Shown piece by piece: positions 1 through 63,480 of a DNA stretch of 64,000 bases. The translations under genes and the position numbers were made by a program. Under the pieces are notes generated by a model, which was not told where the DNA came from, ran no database searches, and saw only the letters and a list, made by a program, of their open reading frames with translations. Each line of letters starts with the position of its first letter. Position 1 is the stretch's first letter. The stretch comes from Gautieria morchelliformis. Taxonomy: Eukaryota; Basidiomycota; Agaricomycetes; Gomphales; Gomphaceae. The DNA is taken from assembly GCA_015179125.1 (NCBI GenBank), contig WHVA01000321.1, positions 1 through 64,000 on the forward strand. Direction: 5' to 3'.

Positions 1-860
1 TGGCTTTCTCTGTCTGTGCTCCAGGCTCTCATCACTGCACCTGGTGGTTTTTCTTTGCCATTGATTGTTGCTTTTTTATCTTCTTTTTTATCTCTTTTTT
101 ATTGCTAATATTTCGCTTTTTATTCATTTTCTGACTGCTTTTCAGCATAGGTTGCTCCTCTCACTGCCTCCCCATCCTTCCTGGCTCTCATCACTGCCCC
201 TGGTGTGTTTCCTTGCCATTGATTGTTGCTTTTTTATCTTCTTTTTTATCTTCTTTTTATTGCTAATATTTTCGCTTTTTTATTCATTTTCTGACTGCTT
301 TTCAGCATAGGTTGCTCCTCTCACTGCCTCCCCATCCTTCCTGGCTCTCATCACTGCCCCTGGTGTGTTTTCCTTGCCATTGATTTTCGCTTTTTTATCT
401 TCTTTTTATTGTTGTTATTTTCGCTTTTTTAGTCATTTTCTGACTGCTTTTCAGCATAGGTTGCCCCTCTCACTGCCTCCCCATCCTTCCTGGCTCTCAT
501 CACTGCCCCTGGTGTGTTTTCCTTGCCATTGATTTTCGCTTTTTTATCTTCTTTTTTATTGTTGTATTTTCGCTTTTTTAATCATTTTCTGACTGCTTTT
601 CAACATAGGTTGCTCCTATCACTGCCTCCCCATCTTGCCTGGCTGTTATCACTGCCCCTGGTGCGTGATTTCTTCCATTAATGTTCACTTTTGGTTATCT
701 TCTTTTTGATTGTTGTGCTTTCTTCGAATATTTTGATCAGTTGCTGACTTCCTTTCAGCCCTGGTTTCTCCTCTCACTGCCTCCCCATCATTCCTGGCTC
801 TCATCCCTGCCCCTGGTGGGTTTTCCTTGCCATTGATGTTTGTTTGTTTCTGTTTCTATG
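1..860 (+). repeat. Helitron leader: tandem exon/intron-like units
   Basis: Five successive 57-nt blocks (146-202, 306-362, 455-511, 604-660, 759-815) are close copies of one another. They are separated by T-rich spacers of about 92-103 nt. Each block is followed by a GT donor of GTRNGT type (GTGTGT, GTGCGT or GTGGGT) and preceded by CTGACTGCTTTTCAG or a close variant, which reads as a fungal branch site plus acceptor. The fourth unit has CAA in place of CAG, with TAG five bases on. An earlier partial unit ends at 43. The blocks contain no ATG, so they would suit untranslated leader exons. Most spacers carry ATTTTCGCTTTTTT or a near copy. I infer a spliced 5' leader of the Helitron gene downstream; plain tandem duplication without splicing is the alternative. 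Confidence 0.75.
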
Positions 861-913
861 ATAAAGAGAAATCAATAAATAAATTCTTCTGAGTCTGCCT
901 TGGTCTGTGTGCA

Positions 914-3900
914 ATGTAAGTCTGATATTGGCAGCTTTATTGTCTCACTACTCTTATGCCTGCATTTCTCAGGGATCCATCTACTCCAGAGAGTAACCGT
1001 CAGCGGGAGCGTGCACAGGCGAGGGAGCAGCGGTTAATGACACCACACACTGATCGGAGAGCGCGTATCAGAGATCGGGACCAGTCACTCCCTCCACCAC
1101 CCCCACCTTTTGCCATCCCTCACCCTCCTCCTAGAAGCAATGCAGCTGATCCTTTTCAACAACCTGTTGCTGGGCCATCACATCCTCCAAGGCTTGCTGG
1201 GCCATCACTTGCTCCAAGGCTTGCGGGACCATCACGTGCTCCTGATCCCAGTCCTACAGAGCAGGTGGCAGCCCTTCGTGCTCAGTTAGCAGTTATCACA
1301 CCATGGCAGCCCCTGAGAGGACATAGGCCAGACCCTGTACAGCCAGCTCCTGTAGTAGGTTCAGCAGCCATTGCAGACTTGCGTGCTCAGGCAGCTGCAT
1401 TGCAGCCTTTGGGAAGGCACAGGCGCGCATCTGTACAACCAGCTCCTCCTCCTCCTGTAGTAGGTTCTGCAGGAGTGGCAGCATTGCGGGCTCAGGCTAA
1501 TGCAGTAAGACCAATGCCTCGGCTACTCCCTGCACTTCTGCGGCCTCTTCAGCGACTGCCTGCACCTCCTCAGCCTCCTCAGCCACTCCCTGCTCCTCCT
1601 CGGCCTCCTCAGCCACTCCCTGCACTTCTGCGGCCTCTTCAGCGACTGCCTGCACCTCCTCGGCCTCCTCAGCCACTCCCTGCTCCTCCTCAGCCACTCC
1701 CTGCACCTCCACAGCCTCTTCAGCCGCTCCCTGCACCTCCTCAGCCTCCTCAGCCACTCCCTGCACCTCGGCAGCGTCCTCAGCGACCTCCTCCTCCTGT
1801 TCCACTTGGTCGCTCTAGAATAATTGAGTCAGATGTGCAGCGTCATGATCTGGGTCCCATGGTTATTCCCTGCCCTGACTGTGGAGCATTACACTGGATG
1901 GCAGAACGCCTGCTGAAATCCTCAAATCGGCGGCCCAGATTTGGTGATTGCTGTATGGAAGGAAAGGTGCAGCTTCCAGAGCTTCCAGTGCTCCCTCAGC
2001 CATTGAGACGGCTCTTAGAGGGCCAGGACCCTGAGGCCAAACAGTTTCGCAAGAACATCAGGCAGTACAATGCTGCATTTGCATTCACTTCCTTGGGAGC
2101 CGAGTTTGATCTAGATTTGCTTCGGGAGGGTCGTGGTCCATATGTCCTCAAGGTGCAGGGCGAACTGTATCATATTCATGGCTCTCTCATCCCTAACCCT
2201 GGGAGGCGGATACAGTATGCCCAACTTTATATATATGATCCAGCATTGGCTTTGGCACAGAGGAACGCGCGTAACCCAGGTCTGTCTCCAACTATCATGG
2301 GAGACTTGCAGGAAATGCTCCTCCTATGCAATCCTCATGTTCCCATATATAGACAAGCGGCTGAGAGGCTCAGAGCTCAGGGACAGAATGGTGAGATCCG
2401 GGCTAGGCTCACGTACAGGGAACACAGGGATCCTAGAAGGTATAATATCCCTACTGCAGATGAGATTGCGGTGGTTCTTCCTGGAGATGGCATCATCCCT
2501 GAACATAGGGATGTTATTGCCCAGCTCAAAGGTGGGCGCTTTCGAAGGGTATCCGATATGAATCCAAACTATGCCTCTCTTCACTATGTCTTGCTCTTTC
2601 CCAGGGGAGAGTTGGGGTGGCAACCTGGTATTCGCTATCGCCAATTACCAGGCGGGCGTGAGCGAAGTGGGCGTGTCACCCAAATTCAGTTCCATTCCTA
2701 TCGTCTCTTCCAGAGAACAGAAGAACCTACAACACTCCTGCGCGCTGGCAAATTATTCCAGCAGTACATTGTAGACTCTTGGGCCGCTGCAGAGCAAAGC
2801 AGGCTGTGGTGGATCAGGACAAATCAACACACTCTCCGTGCTGAGATGTATAACCAGATGATGGATGCCTTTCATCGCAATGACAATGACAGAGATCCAA
2901 ACAACTTGGGCGCAAGATCCATTCTGCCTGCCACATTTCAGGGGGGGACACGGGACATGCAGGAAAACCTGCAGAACTCTCTGGCCATTTCAAGGAAGCA
3001 TGGTGTGGCAGATCTCTTTATTACCATGACTGCCAATCCCAACTGGCAGGAGGTATTGGATGCATTGTTGCCCGGACAATCTCCTCAGGACAGGCCTGAC
3101 CTGGTGTCGCGGGTGTTCCAGCTCAAAAAGAAATACCTCATTGACTTGATCGTCAAGGAAAAGATTTTTGGGGAGACCGTCGCTCGCGTCCACACCATTG
3201 AATTCCAGAAAAGGGGACTCCCACACATGCATATTCTTATCTGGTTTGAAAGAGGTTCCAAGATCAGACATCCACATGAGGTGGATTCAATGATTTCAGC
3301 AGAGTTCGCTGATCCAGAGACTCATCCTGTCCTCTACCGGTTGGTCTGTGAGCTGATGACACATGGTCCCTGTGGACAAATGAAACCAAACGCACCCTGC
3401 ATGGAAAATGGCAAGTGCAAGAAAGGCTTCCCAAAGCCATTCTGTGAGGAAACCAGTCTGAATGAGGATGGATATCCAAAATATCGTCGTCGCAATGATG
3501 GAAGGCTGCACAATGTCAGAGGTGACATGCTGGACAACAGATGGGCTCTGCCATACTCTGCCCTGCTCTTGCTCAAATTCTGGTGTCACATCAACCCTGA
3601 ACTCACCATCAATGTGAGGTGTATCAAGTATATCCACAAGTATCTCTACAAGGGCCATGATCGGACCACCATGGAGTTTGGTCGCACCCAGGATGAAATT
3701 AAGCAGTACCTGGACGCTCGCTATGTCAGTGCTCATGAGGCCTGTTGGAGGTTGCTGGAGCGGGAAATCCACACCCAGGTGCCTGCAGTCATGGCACTGC
3801 CAGTCCATGAAAAGGACCATCACACAATCATCTTTGATCCCGACCAGGATGTGGACAACATCCTGGAAAGGGCTGAGGCGAAAAAGACACCGCTCATGGC

Positions 3901-5974
3901 TTACTTTGAGGCCAATGATATCTACCCTGAAGCACGTGATCTTCTCTATGTGGAGTTTCCTGAGCATTTTACCTGGCACTCACAGGAAAAGGTATGGACA
4001 CCACGCCAAGGAGGTTATAGCATCGGTCGCCTTCACTTTGCAAACCCTAGATCAGGAGAGAGATTTTTTGTGCGCACTCTCCTCACAGTGGTCAAGGGGG
4101 CTAGATCCTTTGAGGAGCTTAGGTCGGTGGATGGCATACAATATGCTACTTACAAGGAGGCCTGTCGTGCAAGGGGACTTCTGGATGATGATCAGGAGTT
4201 GAGGTTGTGTCTCCAGGAAGCCAGTGGCATGAAAACAGGTGCTCAGCTCAGACATCTCTTTGCCACCATCCTTGGCCATTGCAATCCATCGGGTCCTGGC
4301 AGACTATGGGATGGCTTCAGGGAGCACATATGTGATGATCTCAGACATCAGCTCCAAATCAGACATGGTATGCAGGATCCACAGGACGATCAGGTTTATG
4401 ATTTTGGCCTCTTTCTCTTGGAAAAAATCCTCCAGCAGGGTGGAATGTCCTTGAGCAGCTTTGATGATATGCCTCGGGTGGCAGGCGAGTGGGAGGCCCT
4501 CATTGGAAACAGGTTCATAGCTGAGCAGAGGGACTATGACCCTGTTGAAGAGAGGGAAAAGGCTGATGAGGAGGTTCCCAAGCTGAATGAGGGGCAAAGG
4601 TCTGCGCATGATCAGATATTACGGTCGGCACTGACCAGAGATGCTCATGGGAAACCTGATGGACAAATGTTTTTTGTCACTGGCTCAGGTGGCGCCGGGA
4701 AATCATTCACATGGAACACTCTAATCCACTCCTGTAGAGCGGAGAGCCTCATTGTGATTGCAGTAGCCTCATCTGCAATGGCTGCACTTATCCTCACTAA
4801 TGGGACAACCTCTCACAGCATGCTTGGAATTCCCATTCCTGTCCATGAGCGCTCTTTCTCCTCCATCAAAAAGAACTCTGACAAGGCTGACATGCTGAGA
4901 CAGGCCAGTCTCCTCATCTGGGATGAGGCTGCAATGCAGCATCGCCATGCCATAGAGGCCATTGACAGGACACTGAGGGATTTCCTTGACCAGCCTGATA
5001 GACCCTTTGGTGGCATCACAGTCGCCTTTGGAGGTGACTTTCAGCAGACTCTCCCAATTGTCCCTAAAGGCTCCAAGGAGGATATCGTGGGAGCTACCCT
5101 TCAGAAGTCATATCTGTGGCCAAAGATCAAGGTCATCCATCTGACAGAGAACATGCGGGTGAGAAATGACCCTGACAGAGCCAGGTTTGCAGAATGGCTG
5201 CAGAATGTGGGCCAGGGAAAGGATCTCCCACTAGATCATACGTTCTCACTCCCTCCTCACATGGTTTGTGGCCCTGGAATTGAAGATCTGATCCAGGAAA
5301 TATACCCTGGCATTGGCAATCATGTCCCTGCCCAGGACAATTACTTTTTGGAGCGTGCCATCCTCTGTGCCAGAAACACTGAGGTCAATGAGATCAATTC
5401 CATGGTGTTTAGGGAGTTTCCAGGTGATGCTCAGGTCTTGCACTGCGCAAATTTCATTGAAGAATCCGATGATGCAGATCGGTATCCTGTGGAGTATCTG
5501 AATTCCATAGAGATGGGCTGTCTTCCTCCTGCTCGCTTGGAAGTCAAGCCTGGAGTGCCTCTGATGCTGTTGCGCAATTTGGATCAGAAGCAAGGACTAT
5601 GCAATGGGACAAGGTTGCGGTTGGTGAGGATAAGCATTAGAGTGTTGGAGGTCAGGATCATCTCAGGTCCATGTGCAGGCAATATTGCTTTCATCCCCAG
5701 GATCATCATTAAGCCATCAGAGGGAGAGTTGCCATTTGTGCTGCAAAGGAGGCAGTTTCCAGTGCGTTTGGCATTTGCAATGACTATCAACAAGTCTCAA
5801 GGACAGTCTTTGGGTACGATTGGGCTGGACCTGAGATATCCAGTGTTTGGACATGGTCAGTTGTATGTTGGTGTATCAAGAGGGACCAATTGGAACAGAG
5901 TGAAGGTCTTGCTTGAGGAGGGTTTGGACACAACCAACATTGTATATAAAGATGTATTACTTAGAGCTCCTTGA
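914..5974 (+). CDS. Helitron Rep-helicase transposase
   Basis: This single large protein runs rolling-circle transposition of the Helitron: an HUH-type Rep nuclease nicks and joins single-stranded ends and a PIF1-like helicase unwinds the element. Numbering from the ATG at 956 gives 1672 residues; with the spliced start (914-915 joined to 973) it is about 1667. In order: a proline/leucine-rich low-complexity region of repeated PAPPQP-like units (to about residue 285), a CPDC...CC putative zinc site (about 305-335), the Helitron-like N domain, the HUH motif HMH at 757-759, paired tyrosines Y892 and Y896 in KYIHKYLYK, then a PIF1 helicase with Walker A GSGGAGKS (1243-1250), Walker B IWDEAA (about 1321-1326), GGDFQQTLP and the late motif NKSQGQSLG. 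All key residues are present and the frame is open throughout, so the element looks recently active. The stop lies 149 bp before the Helitron 3' end. Confidence 0.97.
916..972 (+). other. Intron that assembles the Helitron start codon
   Basis: GTAAGT at 916 is a consensus donor and TTTCTCAG ending at 972 a good acceptor, with CTCAC near 945 as a possible branch site; the length of 57 nt is typical of basidiomycete introns. Removing it joins AT (914-915) to G (973), giving ATG followed directly by GAT CCA TCT, which is the frame of the long Rep-helicase gene. The unspliced ATG at 956 is in the same frame but would lie inside this intron. Seen in sequence; splicing itself is inferred. Confidence 0.72.
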
Positions 5975-6095
5975 TTTTATTATATCCACTTCTCTTGATA
6001 TGGTTTATGTGTGTTACTTGATTTTACTTGATGCAAATTGGTTACTTTTATTTTCCCCAATGCACTTGACCTTACCGATGCGTTTGACCTACACC

Positions 6096-6123
6096 CCCGC
6101 GCGAAGCGCGGGTACCCACCTAG
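6096..6123 (+). other. Helitron 3' terminus (hairpin + CTAG)
   Basis: CCCGCGC and GCGCGGG form a perfect 7-bp stem around a GAA triloop (6096-6112). TACCCACCTAG follows and ends at 6123, and the next base is T. This matches the known Helitron terminator layout: short GC-rich hairpin about 10 nt before CTRR. The preceding 6079-6095 stretch is shared with the second 3' end at 8222-8239. Confidence 0.93.
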
Positions 6124-6189
6124 TTCCTATAGGTGAAAGCAGCACGGTGGGAGGTTGTGGGCGCCGCTTACAAATAATATTACGTAAAA

Positions 6190-6345
6190 CTTATGTCAGC
6201 GGCGAGCGGCGCAGCCGCGAGCGGTTCGCGGGCTCCAGCGCTCAACCCTGCGCTGGCAACGAACGCTGCGCAGCGGTCACGTGACCCGTTCACGCGTGGT
6301 CCGTGCACGACGCGCGCACGGTATAAAGGCAGAACGGTAAGGATG
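6190..6345 (+). promoter_or_regulatory. GC-rich promoter-like head with TATA box
   Basis: The stretch holds GC-rich short palindromes, among them a CCAGCGC/GCGCTGG stem near 6237-6258 and CGCTGCGCAGCG near 6266-6277, a CACGTG site near 6279, and TATAAAG at 6322-6328. Pyrimidine-rich CTGTCTGCT repeats follow. The order of compact GC motifs, TATA and a pyrimidine-rich start region is promoter-like. A similar TATA-then-array order recurs at 62401. Confidence 0.5.
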
Positions 6346-6780
6346 GAATGGCAGGAATCTGCCCACCGGCAATTCCTCTTGCTGCTGTCTGCTCGGTTCC
6401 CTGTCTGCTCTGCTCTGTCTGCTGTCTGCTCTCTATGGTGTCTCCTCCTTTAGCTGGCTGGCTGTCTATTGCTTTGGCAGGCTAGCTATCTTTTGCTTGG
6501 CTTGGCTGGCTATCTATTGGCTTGGCTGGATTTCTATTGGTAGGTAATATCTCTTTTTTAATGCATTGCCATGTATTTTATTTTATTTGTGTTTGTAATT
6601 TCATTGGTGCCTTTCTTTTTTTTTCATTATATTGTATTGTCACATGTGCTTTATATTTTTCTGAATTTTTTCGAAAATAGATTTAAATAACATCCCCAGA
6701 CTGTGGTGAAAAAATTGTAGTGTAATATCTATATTTTTCAGGTTTTTTTTGAAAATAGACATCAATAAGTTTCCTCTAAA

Positions 6781-7291
6781 ATTAATGACAATAGGTTCTG
6801 CTTTTAAATGTGGTTTGTTTTATTGTTTTATGGACTGTAAAGCTGCTTACCTATACTGGTGGCTGGCTTACTATGGCTCTGGGTTTCTCTGTCAGTCCCT
6901 GGGCTTCTCTGGCTTTGACTGGGCATTAATAACAGCTTCTGCTTCAATGTACTGTACTTTTTTGACATTTTTTCGCAAATAGATATCAATAAATTATCCT
7001 GACTTTGTGAAAATTGACAACAGCTCCAGGTTAAATGTACAGTGCATTTTTTTGACATTTTCGAAAAATAGATAACCCTAAATTTGCTAAAATTAATAAC
7101 AGCTTCAGCTTACATGTACTGGACATTTTCTTGACATTTTTTCAAAAAATAGATAATCCTGACTTTGCTAAAAATTAATGACAGCTGCTTAAATATGGTT
7201 TCCTGGACTATTTTATTTATGTCTGTATATGTCACAAAATAGATATTGATACATGTCCCTGAGCTTGCTAAAAGTTAATAAGTAGTAACAG
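6781..7291 (+). repeat. Tandem microexon/intron-like array
   Basis: About five units with a period of 79-88 bp. Each has a short block of about 13 nt (6936-6948, 7024-7036, 7103-7115, 7185-7197; a longer 15-nt form at 6795-6809). Each block is preceded by an acceptor-like AAYAACAG or similar, and three of them are followed by GTACWG donors. The 66-75 nt between them carry TTTTTCGAAAATAG-like tracts and a CTAAAATTAA stretch that could hold a branch site. The layout mirrors the 57-nt units before the coding Helitron, though the sequence differs. Earlier, more diverged units appear from about 6660. Confidence 0.55.
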
Positions 7292-7379: not shown

Positions 7380-8125
7380 ACACACACTATGCATGGGGAC
7401 ACGCATGTTATGCATGGAGACATGCATGGTATGCGTGGGGACACGCACGCTATGCTTGGGGACACGCATGCTATGTGTGGAGACACTCATGGTATGCATG
7501 GAGACACGAATGTTATGCGTGGGGACACGCACGCTATGCTTGGGGACATGCACGCTATGCTTGGGGACACGCACGCTATGCATGGGGATGTGCACACTAT
7601 ATGTGGGGACACACTATGCTTGGGGGACATGGTACAAACAAGGGACACACTACAGGGGAAAACACTACAAACAAGGGACATTCTACACATGCTATACTTG
7701 GGGGACACGCTACAAACAAAGGACATGCTATGCACACTATACTTGGGGGACATGTTATGCATCGGGGACACACTTTGCACACTATACTTGAGGGAGATGC
7801 TACACACACTACATGTAGGGACATGCTACACATGTGGACACGCTATGCATGGGGGACACACATGCTATAATTTAGGGACACGCTATGTTTGGGGACATGC
7901 TACAAACCAGGGACATGCTATGCATGTGAGACACGCCATGCACACTGTACTTGGCGACATGCTACATGTGGAGACACACTATGCATGGAGGACATGCTAC
8001 ACACACTATACTTGGGGACATGTTATGTGTGGGGTCATGTTACAAACCAGGGACACAATAAGCATGCTATATTCAAGGCTATGCATGGAGGACATGCTAT
8101 GCACGCTATACTTGGGCACATGCAG
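7380..8125 (+). repeat. 21-bp minisatellite (GGGGACACGCACGCTATGCTT)-like
   Basis: Between about 7430 and 7610 the period is a clean 21 bp; further on the units become irregular (15-45 bp) but keep the GGGGACA...CTATGC core. Because 21 is divisible by three, several frames on both strands stay open by default. The longest reads GDTHAML-type heptads, about 270 codons to 8135, with the first real ATG near 7326. Nothing else supports a protein, so I treat this as a repeat inside the Helitron-bounded segment. Confidence 0.85.
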
Positions 8126-60270: not shown

Positions 60271-60703
60271 CAACCCAGCAGCTCCCTCTCACTGATAGAT
60301 CAGCGTAGTTGAAGCTGGAGATGATGGGCTTGATCGAGGGTGGGTGCGAGTCGGCACGAACGCTTCAAATGGTAGTTGCCAGTTGACCGCCAAAAGTTAG
60401 CGGCGGTTGCTGCCGAGCGGCACCAGTGAACGAGTTATACACGATTCGTAGTGGTTGGCGCCATGTGGTGCTGAATGGTGGTAATCGCCGGTGAACAGCG
60501 CTGGCCACCAGCGTGCAGCAGTGCTGACTTATGCTGTCCACGGCCGACCTGTATCTCACGGCCTCAAACACCAATGCAGGGTAGACACCCACCATGTGTC
60601 CTGTGATGAGTGCTCCCTGTCACTCATATACAGCGTGAATCGGCGCTGAGGCCTTGAAGAAAACAGGTTGAGGTCGACAGGCTTGTCCACAATCTGTCAA
60701 CAA
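60271..60703. other. Intergenic with a block repeated at 61.5 kb
   Basis: About 110 bp around 60350-60440 (GATCGAGGGTGGGTG, GCTTCAAATGGTA, AGCGGCGGTTG, GGCACC) recurs diverged at about 61525-61620 in the same orientation. It looks like a dispersed, non-coding repeat family. Confidence 0.55.
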
Positions 60704-60972
60704 GGCTGTCAACCCATAAGCCATGGGCTTGGGCAATTCTCCATGCGTGAGGATGGAGCACGTGACACGGGACCCGCGTCGTGACTCTACTCTCAGTGTA
60801 ATTGACACTATATAGCTGTTAATAAATATGTTTATTAGGCTGTCAACCCATAACCCATGGGCTTGGACGATTCTCCATGGCGAGGATGGAGCACGTGACA
60901 CGGGACCCGCATCGTGACTCTACTCTCAGTGTAATCGACACTATATAGCTGTTAATAAATATGTTTATTAGG
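60704..60972 (+). repeat. 134-bp tandem duplication
   Basis: Two copies, 60704-60837 and 60838-60972, are nearly identical. Each has AACCCATAASCCATGGGCTT, GAGCACGTGACACGGGACCC, CACTATATAGCTG and AATAAATATGTTTATTAGG. CACGTG and a TATA-like box in each copy suggest a promoter-type unit, but no gene follows. Confidence 0.88.
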
Positions 60973-61785
60973 CAACTGACAAACAGCAGCATCTTCCATA
61001 TCTCAGCATAAAACGGTGGAGATCATATCAAACGGGTCTATTTCTGGTTGCAGGACAACAGCGTGTGGTGCAAGTATACTGTAGACCATGTACAGTAGGC
61101 ACCAATGCTTATAACTAATCGGAAGCCCACACTGTACATGCAAAGAAGTGCACATTCCCCCCGCGTGCGGCCCGACTCGGAAACGATGGTCGAGGCTGTG
61201 GCCTATGTGGACAGGGAGCATCGTTGAGTGGTGGATCGCGGGGTGGAACGTGAGTGGACGGCGAGCGACAATGAACGGGATACGGTGTCGAGCGCGAGGG
61301 GGCAGCGGGGTACAGGGAGGGAGGCCAAGGGCAGGTGAGGCAGGTGAGTCTCAGCGCCGAACGTTAGATAACATTGCTCACCTGAGAGGCGGAGCGAGTG
61401 GGTACGACGTTCCTCGTGGAACTCGAGGGTGCACCAATGGCGGCCCCTTAGCGTTGGGTGCGAGCGACATTCGATGGGACGTGGTGAACCACGCGTTGTG
61501 TGACAACGCGCAACAGCGTGTGATCGAGGGTGGGTGGGAGTGGGCGGGAGTGCTTCAAATGGTAATTCCCACCATTGACGGTCGAAAGTCAGCGGCGGTT
61601 GGTGCCGGGCGGCACCGGCCAAACCGTGCATTACTGCCATACTGCCATGGACCGTGTCCATGCAAGTCTGAACGGCCGGGTCGTTCTCGGCTGAGGGCCT
61701 GTCACGGCTATAGCCGGACTTTGCAGATCACTACTAGTTATCGTGAGGCATTGAACACTCAGCTTACCTGAGGTCATTGAAATAG
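60973..61785. other. No gene recognised
   Basis: Open stretches occur on both strands (for example plus strand 61148-61771, 207 codons). They have skewed composition and conflicting frames and show no domain. Part of the region is the repeat shared with 60.35 kb. Confidence 0.45.
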
Positions 61786-62281: not shown

Positions 62282-62690
62282 GTCATCGTATAGTCTTGTT
62301 ATTATTATACCATCCACTTGCCATGTGTCATCATCGTATCGATGATTCCGATGATTCCGGGGCAGGTAGTGATTGCGACGACATCATCGACGATCAATAG
62401 TATAAAGATGGGTGCGCAGGTGGTTGTGGGGGTGCCTGCGTTTTACGTAATCCTGACTAAGACGCAAACAGACCACGCATACTGACTAAGATGCTGCGCA
62501 CGACGCGTGTTCTCTCCCTCTGCCATCATCCTCCCACCGTCCTCCCAGCGTGCTTCTTTCACATCTATTTCTGTCTCAAGTATGTTCTCACCTCCTGGAT
62601 CAATTGACTGACCCTGATGAGGCATGCAGAAGCTTTTAATTCACTGGTGTGTCTCTCATTTAATTTTCGCTTTTTTAGCTCATTTTTGGC
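62282..62690 (+). promoter_or_regulatory. TATA promoter and leader start of a Helitron-like unit
   Basis: The stretch has ATCATCGTATCGATGATTCC palindrome-like words (62330-62360), TATAAAG at 62401-62407, then a pyrimidine-rich start region (TTCTCTCCCTCTGCC, 62510-62525) leading into the tandem array. The order parallels the 6190-6900 region. No Rep-helicase gene is reached before the window ends, and a 5' TC terminus could not be fixed. Confidence 0.45.
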
Positions 62691-63480
62691 CCCTTTTTAA
62701 GCCAGATTACACCTCTCACCTCCTCTTCACTCTACCTGTGGGTGTCTCCCTGCATTCTGGTGAGCATCCTGGCCCAATTTTCGCTTTTTTGGATGGTTTG
62801 CTCATGCCAACAGCTCTGCAGTGCCTTGGGTATGTTTTTCTCTTTTATTTTGGCTTTTTAAGGCGTATTTTGGCCTATCATATGCCAGATCTACCCTCTC
62901 AGCCTCATATCTCTTAGGTATGATCTCATGCTCAGAGCAATTTCCTTTTTCTGTGTTAATTTTCGCTTTTTTGCCCCATTTTCCCCCCTTTTCGGGCCAG
63001 ATTACACCTCTCACCTCCTCTTCACTCTACCTGTGGGTGTCTGTCTGCATTCTGGTGAGCATCCTGCCCTTATTTTCGCTTTTTTGGGTGGCTTGCTCAT
63101 GCCAACAGCTCTGCAGTGCCTTGGGTATGTTTTTCTCTTTTATTTTCGCTTTTTAAGGCTTATTTTGGCCTATCTTATGCCAGATCTACCCTCTCAGCCT
63201 CATATCTCTTAGGTATGATTTCATGCTCAGAGCAATTTCCCTTTTCTGTGTTAATTTTCGCTTTTTTGCCCCATTTTCCCCCCTTTTCAGGCCAGATTAC
63301 ACCTCTCACCTCCTCTTCACTCTACCTGTGGGTGTCTGTCTGCATTCTGGTGAGCATCCTGCCCTTATTTTCGCTTTTTGGGTGGTTTACTCATGTCAAC
63401 AGCTCTGCAGTGCCTTGGGTATGTTTTTTCTCTTTTGATTTTGCTTTTTAAAGTTTATTTGGCTTTTTTTCAAGCTTACT
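62691..63480 (+). repeat. 295-bp tandem array of exon/intron-like units
   Basis: About 2.7 units with a 294-295 bp period. Each unit has a 54-nt block (62706-62759, 63001-63054, 63296-63349) followed by GTGAGC, a 16-nt block (62814-62829 and repeats) between CAACAG and GTATGT, and a 15-nt block (62903-62917 and repeats) between CTCTCAG and GTATGA. The spacers of 54-83 nt nearly all contain ATTTTCGCTTTTTT or a one-base variant. Donors and acceptors are good fungal splice sites. I infer a spliced leader as at 1-860; expression evidence is lacking. Confidence 0.65.

Follow-up and report, generated by a model that had tools for sequence, protein, structure and literature searches.

What is the tandem array that opens contig C362 of Gautieria morchelliformis, just before a transposon gene, and does its repetition do anything for that gene? 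We analyzed the window, a stretch of 64,000 nucleotides comprising bases 1-64000 of this contig, and searched the genome (122 Mb in 1,113 contigs) for its relatives. TRF places an array at 20-837 with a period of 149 and 5.3 copies; its score of 1043 indicates that the array is not a product of chance. A prior sequence-only reading had described a Helitron leader with five exon-like blocks of 57 nt, each free of ATG, and spacers of 92-103 nt. All five blocks were recovered at this length and without an ATG, separated by spacers of 103, 92, 92 and 98 nt. The further claim that the spacers carry conserved splice signals stands in part: they are GT...AG-like, but the spacer at 512-603 ends in CAA rather than CAG, and the one at 44-145 begins with GTGGTT, which does not fit the proposed GTRNGT. 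The features of the element are as follows, where "motif" denotes the 13-mer TTTTCGCTTTTTT.

1..43, + strand: 3' part of the first leader exon, pyrimidine-rich, ending in CACTGCACCTG/GT and cut by the contig end
44..145, + strand: predicted intron 1, GTGGTT ... CTGACTGCTTTTCAG, with a motif copy that has one mismatch
146..202, + strand: 57-nt block 1, predicted non-coding exon
203..305, + strand: predicted intron 2, with one motif copy (TTTTCGCTTTTT)
306..362, + strand: 57-nt block 2
363..454, + strand: predicted intron 3, with two motif copies
455..511, + strand: 57-nt block 3
512..603, + strand: predicted intron 4, with two motif copies and acceptor CAA; the next AG lies within CATAG at the start of the following block
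604..660, + strand: 57-nt block 4
661..758, + strand: predicted intron 5, with one ATG; motif absent
759..815, + strand: 57-nt block 5
816..893, + strand: predicted intron 6, GTGGGT ... CTTCTGAG; motif absent; acceptor placed by its resemblance to CTGAG in the 144-bp family
894..915, + strand: last leader exon, ending in CAAT, which supplies the first two bases of the start codon
916..972, + strand: 57-nt intron, GTAAGT...CTCAG, splitting the start codon AT/G
973..5974, + strand: Helitron Rep-helicase coding sequence, 1667 aa in the spliced reading, starting MDPSTPES
6096..6112, + strand: Helitron 3' terminal hairpin CCCGCGC-GAA-GCGCGGG, identified by eye
6120..6123, + strand: Helitron 3' end CTAG, followed by T, read from the sequence

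The least certain of these boundaries is the acceptor at 893, which was placed by similarity. A structured RNA was considered and rejected, as no Rfam family reached its gathering score within window 1-7000.

The open frame at 926-5974 contains Helitron_like_N (9.4e-58) and PIF1 (3.3e-66) domains, that is, Rep and a PIF1-type helicase in one protein. Helitrons terminate in a hairpin and CTRR, as does this element. The domains downstream of the array, together with the hairpin and CTAG, identify the array as the 5' leader of an autonomous-type Helitron and bear out the assignment made from sequence alone. HELPO1 and HELPO2 of Pleurotus ostreatus, presented in the accessible part of PMC4289320 as autonomous Rep-helicase Helitrons, are comparable elements; RNA-seq revealed introns in their RepHel genes, though fungal RepHel genes are often described as intronless. 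Tandem leader exons, as proposed here, are not described in that part of the paper, and its main text uses neither the word "tandem" nor the word "untranslated".

Between the array and the open frame, CAAT/GTAAGT...CTCAG/GGATCC reads as a 57-nt intron that divides the start codon; when the start-codon ATG is read unspliced, a stop follows. Of 21 copies examined from this protein lineage (the window copy plus 20 of the other 33 in a list of 34 scored candidates), 20 have AT/G split by such a 57-nt intron, and in L032 a base difference destroys the split start codon. The start codon of a diverged Helitron near the end of the window (L051, C362:62001-70500), which shares 53% amino acid identity with the window Helitron protein over 275 aa, is likewise split, as AAAT/GTGAGT...TTCAAG/GGAGCC. 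Unspliced RNA would also contain a later in-frame ATG (MPAFLRDPSTPE), so splicing is not strictly required for a protein to be made.

Arrays of the window type, designated family A, were collected across the genome. The set holds 19 arrays, including that of the window, and 100 units located by Hamming scan; it was derived from 30 matching loci by removing 11 that overlap (L011, L015-L019 and L026-L030) and the truncated L009, and by adding L043, with L036 and L021 being one place and L044 and L008 another, each counted once. These arrays rank highest among 230 matches, having been selected for their similarity to the window unit rather than at random, and are therefore close relatives of the window copy. 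Each array contains 3-7 units, and none of the 19 has fewer than three. The block measures 57 nt in 97 of the 100 units, and the donor reads CTG/GTG in 98. An acceptor AG is in register in 84; 14 others read AA, one reads AC, and one is out of register through an indel in the block. The 15 lost acceptors are mostly one allele in a fixed unit. Among 45 distinct units, a branch-point-like CTGAC is invariant, as is the donor except at its fourth base; this invariance is weak evidence because many other columns are invariant too. These units are young, and they are not independent of one another. In base composition, the blocks are rich in pyrimidines and the spacers in T. Most spacer indels in the distinct units fall within T runs, a 12-bp tandem piece or two blocks of 10-12 nt, places at which length changes are explained by ordinary slippage. 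The suggestion that constant blocks beside drifting spacers argue against plain tandem duplication thus did not survive: the units are tandem duplications, and the drift is slippage-like.

The 21 copies of the protein lineage carry three types of leader: A in four, C in six and D in 11. Leader C is built of 144-bp units with donors that are mostly GTGAGT. In its six copies, the 31 exons measure 58-65 nt and the 31 introns 72-104 nt; their AG and GT boundaries are partly given by construction, since a sequence pattern of the sites themselves was used to locate them, but no interval in these leaders is long enough to conceal a unit with a lost site. Leader D has two copies of a unit of ~112-121 bp, again intron plus exon. 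That one protein lineage carries three leader types, each made of tandem intron and exon units, supports the exon reading. Similarity between copies resumes at window 889 or 904, within or just before the last leader exon. Block and spacer conservation, proposed earlier as a check on that reading, gave a divided answer: diversity (pi) is 0.047 in blocks vs 0.095 in spacers among the 45 distinct family A units, but 0.099 vs 0.093 among 16 distinct units of the 144-bp family C. A conserved block beside a drifting spacer is therefore not a general pattern, and since family C shows none of it, block conservation is weak proof of exons.

Leader A also stands before a clearly diverged Helitron coding sequence, on contig C935 (L005, L016 and L030). 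The L005 leader is 99-100% identical to that of L007 over ~1.5 kb, and slightly inside the coding region identity drops to 70-91% per 100 bases. A near-identical leader joined to a diverged coding sequence points to a recombinant or to a leader exchanged between lineages. The diverged Helitron that continues past the end of the window has yet another leader:

62660..63460, + strand: leader B array, 295-bp unit with approximately three exon/intron pairs per unit, before the diverged Helitron

By eye, leader B comprises three exon types without ATG and three intron types with ATG; one of its predicted acceptors reads CGG. Its 3' part, from the array to the start codon (L051 1484-2072), lies outside the exon assignment and contains ATGs. 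The helicase region of this Helitron reads in several separate frames, through introns or decay.

L034 contains an array on the reverse strand that is related to A; at least three of its predicted exons include ATGs. None of the nine listed frames of at least 120 aa in L034 1-6000 is helicase-like by eye; the element may thus be non-autonomous. Comparison of 28 exon pairs showed that the A exon and two exons of the L034 array match one another clearly. B exon 1 and one L034 exon gave a weak match (1.3% of shuffles), and all remaining pairs had z < 2.5. By this comparison, the exons of A are homologous to those of the L034 array, homology among the exons of A, B, C and D is not clear, and the weak match may reflect a remote link between B and A. 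This suggests that Helitrons of this genome have repeatedly built introns into their leaders from apparently unrelated sequence.

The distribution of ATG offers a separate view of the exon/intron partition. In family A, none of the 100 blocks contains an ATG vs 23 ATGs in 81 spacers, a number that leaves out the spacer after each last block and before each first block. Leader C has none in its 31 exons vs 66 in its 31 introns. When non-redundant pieces of leaders A, C and D were pooled, ATG occurred at 0 of 931 exon positions vs 14 of 925 intron positions (Fisher 0.00006). The expected number in exons is 14.3 under a first-order Markov model and 10.0 under mononucleotide shuffling, and zero was reached in none of 2,000 runs of either. 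Exon counts of TGA, GAT, AGT, GTA and TAG agree with the first-order Markov prediction for exons; TGA (10 vs 26, Fisher 0.005) and GTA (3 vs 15, 0.003) are nevertheless rarer in exons than in introns. When the exon mask was slid along the leaders, zero ATG was obtained in 2.5% of shifts for A (one copy), 3.1-5.5% for C (four copies) and 5.5% for D (two copies). Jointly, these tests favor the partition as drawn. Leader A taken alone is poor in ATG, and in the window the first four spacers also lack it; were 816-893 exonic, the leader would gain two. Upstream ATGs are thus absent from the predicted exonic leaders of A, C and D and present in the related reverse array of L034.

The introns of A, B and C share the 13-mer TTTTCGCTTTTTT, which starts 24 to ~42 nt upstream of the acceptor in the copies measured, with an additional, more upstream copy in A. 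Counting both strands, the genome contains the 13-mer 1,630 times vs 15 times for the reversed control, and about the first hundred places listed are mostly clustered, with further clusters on contigs C1, C2, C47 and C64. In the window, array introns 1 (with one mismatch), 2, 3 and 4 contain it, but introns 5 and 6 and the start-codon intron do not; nor does any leader D examined. With the motif masked, seven of 10 intron pairs are no more similar than chance (at least 10% of shuffles), and weak similarity is left between C and B intron 3 (4% of shuffles) and between C and both A and B intron 2 (6%). The seven papers in which the 13-mer turned up were unrelated by title. We regard TTTTCGCTTTTTT as a candidate intronic signal that could act in splicing, transcription or chromatin.

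Three lines of evidence, namely the absence of ATG from all 100 family A blocks, the same architecture in other leaders and a start codon completed by a predicted splice, make it likely that the blocks are spliced non-coding exons, as had been proposed. The explanation of the whole that we favor, with some reservation, adds to such exons an enhancement of expression that depends on the number of introns. The array would be a run of units, each a spliceosomal intron plus a non-coding exon, in the 5' leader of an autonomous Helitron. Transcription would start immediately upstream of the array, in a stretch rich in pyrimidines, and the T-rich spacers would be spliced out as introns, leaving a mature leader of successive ATG-free exons, the last of which ends in CAAT. 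The last splice would join CAAT to GGATCC, making the first ATG that of the Rep-helicase. Units would be gained and lost by tandem duplication within the range of 3-7 per array, and repeated introns close to the promoter would raise mRNA output by intron-mediated enhancement, additively with their number, with TTTTCGCTTTTTT as a candidate intronic signal. Against this, exon sequence is not clearly constrained: pi is lower in blocks than in spacers in family A but nearly the same in both in family C.

The additive step is drawn by analogy with Cryptococcus neoformans, in which, according to the accessible part of PMC3744415, intron number and position have a cumulative effect on mRNA level; the same source reports that some introns act negatively and that one tested gene needed none. 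Those are ordinary introns of host genes, and here the predicted introns lie in a transposon leader. On this analogy, intron number probably raises expression. Whether the repetition itself has a function is a question on which we lean slightly to the negative. A bolder version, which we consider rather unlikely, would make the leaders swappable "intron batteries": unrelated sequences independently arrayed as ATG-free exons and introns, most converging on TTTTCGCTTTTTT as read by a specific host factor, and exchanged between Helitron lineages, with helicase output proportional to unit number and translation licensed by the splice-completed start codon.

The strongest rival for the repetition is passive expansion, in which a unit of one exon and one intron in the leader turned into a minisatellite that was carried along as the element spread. 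Splicing would then be real and would keep the leader harmless, making this account compatible with the splicing half of the explanation that we favor, and unit number would be inert. Variation between 3 and 7 units among the 19 arrays, slippage-like changes in spacer length and the presence of other minisatellites elsewhere in these elements all fit such passive growth. Two facts are less easily accommodated: leaders A, B and C, as well as D with its two copies, have each formed such units in an equivalent position although their exons show little or no detectable homology, and fewer than three units are found in none of the 19 arrays, which were picked by similarity to the window unit. We hold it to be a serious possibility, if a somewhat doubtful one.

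The strongest rival for the whole is that the units are tandem promoter monomers, each consisting of a T-rich, nucleosome-poor stretch and then a region rich in pyrimidines where transcription starts; the result would be many alternative first exons, each provided with a donor. The composition of blocks and spacers agrees with this, and so does the occurrence of different unit types before one protein lineage, which is reminiscent of the 5' UTR monomers of mouse L1 as presented in the accessible part of PMC6454616: tandem units of several types and varying number before a transposon gene. The L1 monomers are described as promoter units, whereas the present units, which belong to a rolling-circle DNA transposon, have ATG-free exons together with donor, acceptor and branch-point-like signals. 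Alternative first exons need no acceptor, yet acceptors with CTGAC and a pyrimidine tract are kept in most family A units, and the array is preceded by unique 5' sequence that has a pyrimidine-rich run of its own. We judge this account unlikely.

Still less probable, to our mind, is the proposal of the sequence-only reading that expression is tuned by the choice of which of these exons to include. They are interchangeable and ATG-free, so that any combination keeps the reading frame and skipping or including one leaves the protein unchanged; the lost acceptor of one unit would, moreover, yield skipping or use of CATAG. Near-identical exons, however, would make little difference between isoforms. 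The idea that the blocks encode an N-terminal extension, which the divisibility of 57 by three might suggest, can be rejected, because the predicted spliced leaders have no upstream ATG (though transcription could start further up) and the 58-nt exons of the 144-bp family do not keep the frame.

If spliced as proposed, these leaders would be a natural dose series of near-identical, promoter-near introns before one protein, and would thus permit a direct test of intron number against expression in fungi and of why a DNA transposon keeps adding introns. The shared 13-mer is a specific sequence to consider as a possible intronic enhancer or signal for splicing. We found no report of tandem non-coding exons in Helitron leaders in the literature searched, which holds few subscription papers and no bioRxiv preprints. 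Oyster Helentrons (PMC7492417) resemble the present elements in carrying tandem repeats inside a rolling-circle transposon; going by its title, that paper concerns dispersed satellite-like arrays of non-autonomous elements, with no mention of leader exons.

Other copies show what lies beyond the 5' side of the window copy. Base 1 is the end of the contig rather than of the array, and ~275 bp of Helitron 5' end lie off the contig; L036, L043 and L044 have 274-276 bp more than the window copy at this side, starting TCTAAGAGTTAAACGCG. Helitrons typically have TC at the 5' end and insert between A and T; the copies examined here start with TCTAAGAGT, preceded in many by the CTAG of another Helitron and in some by A. 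This terminus lies upstream in all nine A and C copies that cover that end and in 10 of 11 D copies; none was found near L042, which has leader D. In other copies, the same CTAG 3' end as in the window directly abuts TCTAAGAGT 5' ends. Helitrons often stand head to tail, a CTAG end directly before the next TC 5' end (L036 3194-3208, L043 3380-3394 and others), and two elements are apparently arranged head to head at L034 ~5760-5780.

Several further repeats and motifs were observed. The nonamer TAATATTAC, known from origins of some small circular DNA viruses, is found at window 6175-6183 and at one site each in L033, L036, L038, L039 (minus strand), L044, L046, L047 and L050; at three of these places, namely the window, L038 and L050, its distance from a Helitron 5' end is ~50 nt, on the inner side. 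The spot is AT-rich, and chance may account for the nonamer. In-frame, proline-rich tandem repeats (window 1517-1784) are found toward the N terminus of the helicase, and their length seems to vary between copies, as judged from alignment gaps. A 21-bp minisatellite occupies window 7383-7625 in the element behind the Helitron, and 17- and 21-bp arrays are also found upstream of many Helitron copies. Elsewhere in the window, two copies of a 133-bp unit (94% matches) lie at 60703-60973, and a telomere-like GGGTTT repeat of 4.8 copies is located inside the contig at 55451-55479.
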